NCBI RefSeq assembly: GCF_000613305.1
Contig: NZ_BAIO01000089.1
Span: forward strand, 1 to 7,617
From: Komagataeibacter kakiaceti JCM 25156
GTDB lineage: Bacteria > Pseudomonadota > Alphaproteobacteria > Acetobacterales > Acetobacteraceae
Direction of reading: 5' to 3'
DNA: 7,617 nucleotides
Positions 51-1,910 of the stretch are shown in pieces; within the stretch, counting starts at the first letter, position 1; the number at the start of each line of letters is the position of its first letter. Below the pieces are notes generated by a model. That model saw nothing but the letters and a program-made list of their open reading frames with translations, did no database searches and had not been told where the DNA came from. A program made the position numbers and the translations under genes.

Positions 51-1358
51 CTATTTGCCAATACAGAACTGGCCAAACACGGTATCCAGAAGGGCCTCCA
101 CATCAACTGCGCCTGTCAGCCGCCCCAGCGCGCGCATGGCAAGCCGCATTTCCTCCCCGCGCATTTCAGGCCAGTCCATATCAAGCGCGCGCCCGATATG
201 ATGCACCGTCTCCTCCAGGGCGGCACGGTGCCGCGCACGGGTGAAAGGCGCGTTCGCCCGCCCCGCGGTCAGCGCCCGTGCGCGCGTGACCAGGGCATCC
301 CTTAGCACATCCATGCCCGCATGGGTGAGTACACTCACACCAATAGCCCCCTCCGGCGCGGAATGCAGATCTATCTTGTTGCAGACCAGCAGGCCATCCC
401 CTTCCAGCCGTGGGGGCACATCTTCGCCTGCGAATACCTGCACGACGCAATCCGCCTGTTTCACGTGAAACAGTGAACGCCGCACCCCCTCGGCCTCGAT
501 CTCGTCATCGGTTTTGCGCAGGCCGGCGGTATCGACCAGCGTGACCGGCACATCCCCCAGCACGACCCTGGCCTCGATCGCATCGCGCGTCGTGCCCGCG
601 CGGGCGGACACGATCGCCGCATCCCGTCCGGCCAGCGCATTGAGCAGGCTGGACTTGCCAACATTCGGCTCTCCCACAATGGCGAAGACCAGCCCCCGGC
701 GCAGCCGCTCGGCCCCGGCCCCTTCCGCCAGGCTGGCGTGCATCGTCGTATGCAGTTCGCGCAATCCGTCAACCAGGCCCTGTTCGACCTCGGGGGGCAG
801 TTCCTCATCGGGGAAGTCGATCAGGGCTTCCTGATGCGCCAGCAGCACGCGCAGCCGGTCTGCCCATTGCTGGTACAGGCGGCTCTGCGCCCCATCGACC
901 TGCGCCAGGGCCTGACGCCGCTGGGCCTCGGTCTCGGCGTCGATCAGGTCGGCTATCCCCTCCGCCTGCATGAGATCCATCCGCCCATGGGTAAATGCCC
1001 GGCGGCTGAACTCCCCCGGTTCCGCCGGGCGGGCTCCAAGGGCGACCAGCGCGTCGGCCACGGCGTTGATGACGGCAGGCCCCGCATGCAGGTGCAGCTC
1101 CGCGCTATCCTCGCCAGTATAACTGTCCGGGCCGGGAAACCACAGCACCAGCGCCCGGTCCAGCAATACCGGCTCCGCCCCGTCGCGCCGCCACAGGCCA
1201 CGAAGGGAGGCCCGACGTGGCGCGGGCAGACGCCCGCACAGGCTTTCCACAATCCTGCCGCACCCCGCCCCACTCAGCCGCATGACCGCGATGGCGGCGC
1301 GTGACAGGCCGCTGGCCAGGGCGAAAATGACCGGAGGATGCCCATCACTTTCCTGCAT
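51..1358 (-). CDS. mnmE: tRNA modification GTPase MnmE (TrmE)
   Basis: MnmE is a dimeric GTPase that, with MnmG, modifies wobble uridine 34 of tRNAs. The 435-residue product has the full family layout: an N-terminal tetrahydrofolate-binding domain beginning VIFALASG, a helical domain, and an inserted G domain. Counted from the chosen start, the G domain shows the P-loop GEPNVGKS (229-236), GTTRD (255-259), DTAGLR (276-281) and NKID (327-330). The protein ends in the family's CIGK motif, whose Cys is needed for modification. The frame stays open upstream to an ATG at 1445. I choose the ATG at 1358 because a GGAG sits exactly 6 nt upstream, family members begin just before the VIFALASG block, and the longer form would overlap the divergent gene and a likely promoter. 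A perfect parS site lies within the coding sequence at 457-472. mnmG follows 12 nt downstream. Confidence 0.96.
457..472. promoter_or_regulatory. parS centromere site (ParB-binding) inside mnmE
   Basis: The 16 bases TGTTTCACGTGAAACA are a perfect palindrome identical to the conserved chromosomal parS sequence bound by ParB. One further flanking base pair (456/473) extends the symmetry to 18 bp. ParB loads at such sites as a CTP-dependent clamp, spreads to neighbouring DNA, and with ParA and SMC directs origin segregation. The site lies inside mnmE, whose reading frame reads it as Leu-Phe-His-Val-Lys-Gln just after the DTAGLR region of the G domain. Location in the mnmE-mnmG block fits, since parA-parB usually lie close to it in Alphaproteobacteria. 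I see only half-sites elsewhere in the window. Binding itself is inferred from sequence identity. Confidence 0.88.
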
Positions 1359-1406
1359 AAACATCTCCGTTACCGCCATCATCATTTTGTCCGCTCCGGG
1401 AACGGC

Positions 1407-1435
1407 GTTATCCTTCACCTCTTTGTCCTGATCAA
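1407..1435 (-). promoter_or_regulatory. Possible sigma-70-type promoter for mnmE-mnmG
   Basis: On the minus strand, TTGATC (1435-1430) and GATAAC (1412-1407) are separated by exactly 17 nt. Each matches the housekeeping consensus at four of six positions. Transcription would begin near 1400, leaving a leader of about 40 nt before the GGAG and ATG of mnmE at 1358. If correct, the upstream ATG at 1445 could not be the mnmE start, because it would lie outside the transcript. The element also sits just upstream of the divergent alkyltransferase gene, and its -35 overlaps that gene's ribosome-binding region. This is a pattern match only. Confidence 0.35.
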
Positions 1436-1443
1436 GGTGACTC

Positions 1444-1910
1444 ATGCCACAACTTTCAATGCACTCGCCACTGGCGCCACTTACGGTCTCGACCGAAGAT
1501 GAGCGGATCGTGGCGCTCGACTGGGGCTGGGGGCGTGATCAGGAACAGACCCCCGTGCTGCTGGCCGCGCGCGCCTGGCTGGATGCCTATTTCGATGGCG
1601 CGACAGCACTTTGCGATCTCCCCCTCGCCCCCTATGGCAGCGATGACCAGCTTGCCGCATGGCGCTTCATGCTGACCATTCCCGTAGCCGTCAGGTTCAC
1701 TGGAAAGATGCGGCGGCGCAGGCCGGGATCGCGCCCGAAAGCATTGTCAGCGCCTGCGTGGAAAACCCCATTCCCATTCTCATCCCCTGCCACCGCATCG
1801 ATTTCACCGACTGCCCCGACTACGACCCGGACACCTATCCCGGTGATGAAGGCGCGCGCGACCGGCTGTTCCTGCGCGATCTGGAGGCACTGTCCACCAC
1901 CACGCCCTGA
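1444..1910 (+). pseudogene. O6-alkylguanine-DNA alkyltransferase-like gene, frameshifted
   Basis: This is a methylated-DNA--protein-cysteine methyltransferase (Ogt/MGMT family) gene read in two frames. Proteins of this family repair O6-alkylguanine by transferring the alkyl group irreversibly to their own cysteine. The first part starts at an ATG with AAGG 6 nt upstream and gives about 80 residues, including [11 protein letters not shown] and the LAAWRFMLTIP segment. After codon 1681-1683 the family similarity jumps to another frame, which continues from 1686 through NPIPILIPCHRI (active Cys codon 1788-1790) to a stop at 1908-1910. The shift equals a loss of one base, or of four if the usual residue and glycine after IP are restored. 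Relative to human MGMT, the DNA-contact Tyr aligns with His and the arginine finger with Glu, so even a repaired product is divergent. It may be a real pseudogene or a sequencing error. qor follows 37 nt downstream and could be co-transcribed. Confidence 0.78.

Follow-up and report, generated by a model that had tools for sequence, protein, structure and literature searches.

The 7,617-nt stretch of DNA analysed for this report (the window) carries within the codons of its mnmE gene a 16-bp palindrome that is almost certainly a centromere site of the chromosome. We have little doubt that this palindrome is a working chromosomal parS for the ParB protein of the same gene cluster, and that the need for ParB binding fixes the mnmE codons in which it lies, hence the residues FHVK or FHVE found there. 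The case is drawn from the sequence of the site, its conservation footprint, the number and position of its copies in relatives, and an adjacent ParB with parS-type contact residues; ParB binding and loading at the site, and its function in segregation, are what we infer from these.

As we envisage it, the ParB encoded ~3.7 kb along the cluster mnmE-mnmG-rsmG-parA-parB (gene order as in K. melaceti) would load on the mnmE parS and, by analogy with studied ParB proteins, might then slide out over the flanking DNA, which in turn could let ParA and SMC organise the region of the origin and segregate it. A further effect of such spreading on mnmE-mnmG expression, as put forward in the initial annotation, is hypothetical. 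Chromosomes of the relatives searched would each have two such sites, ~2.3 kb apart and flanking mnmG, with the second near the start of rsmG. The requirement for ParB binding would fix the mnmE codons and thereby impose FHVK (or FHVE) where a G-domain helix ends; MnmE would tolerate these residues but not require them.

The parS word and its place in mnmE

The palindrome, TGTTTCACGTGAAACA, lies at 457-472, with no strand to be assigned to it, and is the sole parS match in the window when as many as three mismatches are allowed. The initial annotation had claimed a perfect 16-bp parS in mnmE and had judged a chance match very unlikely; the 16-mer is indeed exact, and a chance origin is ruled out by shuffles of the window (n = 200), which gave a mean of 0.01 parS matches per window and reached one match in 2 of the 200. 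The surrounding gene, on the minus strand, encodes the tRNA uridine-5-carboxymethylaminomethyl(34) synthesis GTPase (NCBIfam NF003661, E 1.5e-154), its longest ORF spanning 51-1445 (464 aa), and the first codons of mnmG, MNRAYDVIVVGG, follow on the same strand at 1-38, 12 bp past the mnmE stop codon. The window comes from a Komagataeibacter genome; among the loci compared, its nearest named match is that of K. melaceti, to which it is 89.6% identical in nucleotide sequence over 7,603 bases of summed alignment pieces.

The site is held by the codons CTG TTT CAC GTG AAA CAG (456-473, minus strand), read as L325, F326, H327, V328, K329 and Q330. This agrees with the Leu-Phe-His-Val-Lys-Gln reading within the G domain that had been proposed from the sequence, as the Pfam GTPase domain MMR_HSR1, at MnmE residues 254-339, covers the parS-coded residues. 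In an AlphaFold model of the window's MnmE (mean pLDDT 81.8, pTM 0.64, from a 16-sequence alignment) L325-Q330 close the G-domain helix 315-330, directly ahead of the GTPase-domain strand 333-339. One of the three frames of the parS word contains TGA and, because of this, a parS inside any gene must be translated as either xVSRET or xFHVKx.

The mnmE ORF has ~39 additional N-terminal residues ahead of its conserved part (1329-1445, minus strand), and residues 1-34 are modelled with pLDDT below 50; the true start codon is probably further in than the start of the ORF.

Conservation of the site, base by base

The 16-mer in mnmE is exact in all 52 of the acetic-acid-bacterial loci obtained by MnmE similarity (L001-L051 and L054), a first set that had FHVKQADC among its six peptide patterns and is thus enriched for the peptide, not for its codons. 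Codon usage was tabulated for 65 distinct genes with the exact word, in which 127 columns hold an invariant amino acid with degenerate codons; only four of these columns use a single codon, all four belong to the site, and the next-best top-codon share is 0.92. This table is partly circular, its genes having been picked by the exact DNA word, and the count was therefore repeated with protein-based selection: TTT CAC GTG AAA is used by 69 of 69 genes selected for FHVK, the window included, and four genes selected for FHVE read TT(T/C) CAC GTG GAA, which gives TGTTTCACGTGGAACA (the complement of TGTTCCACGTGAAACA) in three and TGTTCCACGTGGAACA in one. Identical genes were dropped for the codon table and for the change count described below, and among the fetched stretches are some from species already present in the first set. 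The codon alignment omits L058-L078 (21 loci, mostly Pelagibacter-like); judged by position, these have no parS with up to two mismatches inside mnmE.

Changes were counted for 67 distinct genes picked by FHVK or FHVE and mapped on a protein tree of MnmG, the gene for which does not hold the mnmE parS site. Only 3 changes are placed in the 16 parS bases, as compared with 15 at the adjoining base before the site and 11 at the one after it, and the 124 other columns of invariant amino acid have 4 to 28 codon changes each (median 15.5). The initial annotation had extended the palindrome by one symmetric base pair, to 456-473; that pair is present in the window, as CTGTTTCACGTGAAACAG, but it is not conserved, both of its bases varying freely in relatives. 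Synonymous variation across the six codons, by which the same annotation had proposed to judge its claim, is almost absent from relatives within the site itself. The changes that did occur are one synonymous T to C at parS position 5 and two replacements of A by G at position 12, each turning Lys into Glu, and all three are at two mirrored positions that are open in the Bacillus subtilis consensus TGTTNCACGTGAAACA (table in PMC7022226) when it is read on either strand. The charge of the Lys residue may in this way be flipped at position 12 with the word recognised by ParB left unbroken. Taken at the level of sequence, this pattern points to purifying selection on the DNA word itself, as would be expected of a chromosomal parS.

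It might be supposed instead that the bases are kept because MnmE needs LFHVKQ and that the match to parS is incidental. FHVK is after all common to 69 genes and lies inside the GTPase domain, and HVK or HVE is still read at this place in five loci that do not have the word (L098, L103, L105, L107 and L109). Against this, third bases are frozen too, with no changes at H, V and K and one at F; residue 325 may be L or M, with a codon that always ends in TG, residue 330 may be Q or H, with a codon that always starts with CA, and K gives way to E only through a change that parS tolerates. Outside the clade described below, where none of the 27 members of the tree has the site, the residues at this place are mostly unrelated to those of the window and often read RARAxx. 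The frozen synonymous positions and the sharp boundary bases rule out a constraint on the protein only, and we regard an incidental match as exceedingly improbable. Since the residues of relatives without parS are mostly unrelated, it is the DNA that appears to dictate the protein at the site.

Two other accounts of the palindrome were weighed against a parS in use by ParB, and each seems very improbable to us. The first takes it for a relic, or for a parS-like word arisen by chance, that ParB has ceased to use, a view to which some weight is lent by the loss of the site in some lineages and by the fact that we infer the binding of ParB here. Such a word would be expected to drift, yet only parS-compatible changes are seen in the 67 distinct genes, next to 11 to 15 changes at the bases one step outside, and those ten members of the clade that are without the site stand 5 to 12 bases away from parS at that stretch. 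According to the second, the palindrome serves as an RNA hairpin or as a regulator's operator for mnmE-mnmG and does not nucleate a segrosome. ParB can affect nearby promoters in Pseudomonas, according to an extract of PMC5521831, which might be taken to favour such a role. Against it, all Rfam families stay below their gathering scores in a scan of the window, and the variation that is permitted tracks the DNA consensus of ParB. In the gene with the T to C change the other half of the word has changed too, to give the perfect palindrome TGTTCCACGTGGAACA; a hairpin would pair equally well with it, and this gene is undiagnostic when taken alone.

Copies, origin and ParB partner in relatives

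The number and position of parS copies in whole genomes were taken from relatives of the window's genome. In the K. melaceti locus, mnmE (10001-11395) is followed by mnmG (11408-13279) and rsmG (13276-13902), whose products are both above their NCBIfam cut-offs, by parA (13877-14719), which matches ParA-type families, all those shown being below their curated cut-offs, and by parB (14719-15618; TIGR00180, E 8.4e-57, cut-off passed). A second exact parS of this locus, at 13311, is also coding and is read in rsmG as D-VSRET. The ParB of K. melaceti matches the structure of Caulobacter ParB (6t1f, E 4.1e-60) and has R and G at the positions aligned to Caulobacter R173 and G201, as counted by hand along the alignment. 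These two residues are described in PMC7383237 as absolutely conserved in ParB orthologs and as helping to distinguish parS from Noc sites, and the parS consensus given there is the same as the word in the window. Gene order and alignment together thus place a cognate-type ParB with parS-type contact residues near the site in K. melaceti. The open-licence literature yielded no data on ParB binding or segregation for any acetic acid bacterium.

The closest view of a whole chromosome is offered by genome G065, a close relative whose MnmE is 97% identical to that of the window and whose largest contig searched has 3,003,528 bases. This contig has two exact copies of parS, 2.3 kb apart, at 2,015,872 and 2,018,209, no words with one mismatch, one with two and six with three; a reversed control word gave 5 matches with up to three mismatches. 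A neighbouring pair of parS words is found in each of five more genomes (G001-G005: two of Komagataeibacter and one each of Novacetimonas, Gluconacetobacter and Acetobacter), one copy of the G004 pair having one mismatch, and the remaining words, all with two mismatches, number two each in G003 and G005, one in G004 and none in G001 or G002. At least one exact copy is present in 197 of 397 genomes drawn from the family. Dispersed copies of the 16-mer and the lack of a parB had been named beforehand as findings that would count against a centromere site; the copies are few and paired as just described, and a parB adjoins the site in K. melaceti, with a ParB-family match in seven other genomes as well.

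The window was also predicted to lie near the replication origin, and the GC skew of G065 fits this. The skew rises from -0.035 (1.738 Mb) by way of -0.0002 (1.896 Mb) to +0.037 (2.005 Mb), parS being at 2.016 Mb. Negative values extend from 0.63 to 1.74 Mb and positive ones from 2.005 Mb past the contig end to 0.47 Mb. A switch from negative to positive is the usual sign of an origin. The skew was computed from twenty 20-kb samples, which place the switch to within about 120 kb, and by these values it lies within about 120 kb of parS. The dnaA gene of G065 is at contig position 445, or ~1 Mb from parS if the contig is circular, and is therefore a poor landmark there. A contig beginning with dnaA may therefore not begin with oriC, as can be seen in G065, where dnaA is ~1 Mb off both the skew switch and parABS. 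Among six ParB-family matches in this genome the best is at 2.0197 Mb, near parS; in view of the five further matches, it is by position and score that parS is paired with the adjacent ParB.

Evolution of the site and known intragenic parS

An MnmG tree of 68 loci was built by a quick search after those without a usable MnmG stretch, including L103, had been dropped. An mnmE parS with up to two mismatches is present in 31 of the 41 members of one clade (SH-aLRT 94) and in none of the 27 outside it. Its presence and absence require at least five changes on this tree, a count that does not separate gain from loss; a single gain in the clade, followed by loss or relocation in some lineages, is probable. 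One of the ten clade members without it, L135, was flagged as a long branch. Six of the ten form one sub-clade with a single parS (up to one mismatch) downstream of mnmG in the fetched stretch, and these six show partial echoes at the mnmE site (HVK, HVE, HVS or HIE) with no parS word; L103 likewise reads LLHVKN without it. The mnmE parS is not indispensable, because 10 of the 41 clade members lack a site at that place.

A family-wide fetch free of peptide bias returned 60 stretches, mostly those with the best MnmE scores, from 143 matching genomes among 160. At the mnmE site the word is exact in 16 of the 60, has one or two mismatches in 4 and is absent from 40. In two of these 40, L095 and L106, mnmE has an exact parS some 37 codons beyond that place, read as NVSRET and located after the NKxD position (RTKxD in these two). 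In a third, L129, a word with one mismatch is found just upstream of the matched part of mnmE, in the extended frame. For a wider set, 58 alphaproteobacterial genomes were searched, of which 45 matched, and 40 stretches were obtained from 43 not fetched before. Only one of the 40 (L184) has parS inside mnmE, as VSRET after NKxD, and the sites of L095, L106 and L184, which are at another place and in another frame, probably arose separately. On the rsmG side of the wider set parS lies inside the rsmG match in 19 of 40 and at its start in 6 more, two of which have two mismatches. In Gluconacetobacter (L017-L026) the rsmG-side site, with one mismatch, lies near the start of the open frame and is read as MFHVKP or MFHVKR, not VSRET, and the second site thus also shifts frame between genera.

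The gap between mnmE and mnmG holds a parS (up to one mismatch) in 27 of 36 scored class-wide loci and has a median of 103 bp, as compared with 18 bp where the mnmE site is present (52 acetic-acid-bacterial loci); 10 of 157 loci were unscorable, and L097, with two mismatches, was placed among those without a site. That a short gap forced parS into mnmE is argued against by the 33 family loci without the mnmE site, in which the gap is also short (median 23). The picture suggests that an old pair of sites flanked mnmG and that the first of the two shifted out of the gap into mnmE. A broader reading, which we offer tentatively and would not press, is that acetic acid bacteria carry their entire chromosomal centromere in protein-coding DNA, as two parS straddling mnmG, of which the mnmE one gives FHVK and the one near the start of rsmG mostly VSRET; that, as the gap between mnmE and mnmG shrank, an ancestral site there gave way to the mnmE copy, which from then on dictated residues of a GTPase helix; and that at least two more lineages separately made a comparable move to another place in mnmE (after NKxD, as VSRET).

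Intragenic parS sites are already established, as extracts from three papers make clear. Caulobacter crescentus has at least five parS near ori, within essential or high-fitness-cost genes (PMC5815017), and the acetic-acid system resembles it in consensus type and in the clustering of its sites near the origin; unlike what that extract describes, two sites are present in the acetic-acid relatives searched, and the one in the codons of the mnmE G domain has a clade-wide footprint at each base. The parSc of Thermus thermophilus, bound by ParB in gel shifts, is within gidB (rsmG) next to parA (PMC4409726); the present cluster shares with it a parS in a coding gene by parA, its second site also being in rsmG, and differs from the single gidB site reported there by the additional site in mnmE. 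In Corynebacterium glutamicum, parS1 lies in trpCF and matches the mnmE site in being intragenic and in its type of consensus; of the ten sites there it alone is in a coding sequence (PMC7083940), whereas both of the acetic-acid sites are apparently in codons. What is new here, apparently, is a clade-wide case resolved to single bases, with what appears to be a whole two-site centromere in codons.

The site offers a clean natural case in which a DNA-binding need sets the amino acids of a conserved enzyme and can be read base by base, and the FHVK block cautions against taking such a block for a functional motif of MnmE. Acetic acid bacteria might also provide a ready test of how many parS a chromosome needs, as those searched appear to have two, both coding, and the mnmE site and the VSRET form of the second site can be recoded with the proteins unchanged.

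Two further features of the window lie away from the site. Single-base deletions relative to K. melaceti at 1686, 6742 and 7350 break three reading frames, which we take to be an Ogt-like ORF at 1444, trpB and trpA; three such deletions in 7.6 kb suggest sequencing errors in the assembly and not pseudogenes. At about 2949-2981 a G+C-rich inverted repeat with runs of A and T at its flanks was noticed by eye between an ORF, presumably quinone-oxidoreductase-like, and the oppositely oriented rho, and it looks like a terminator common to the two converging genes.
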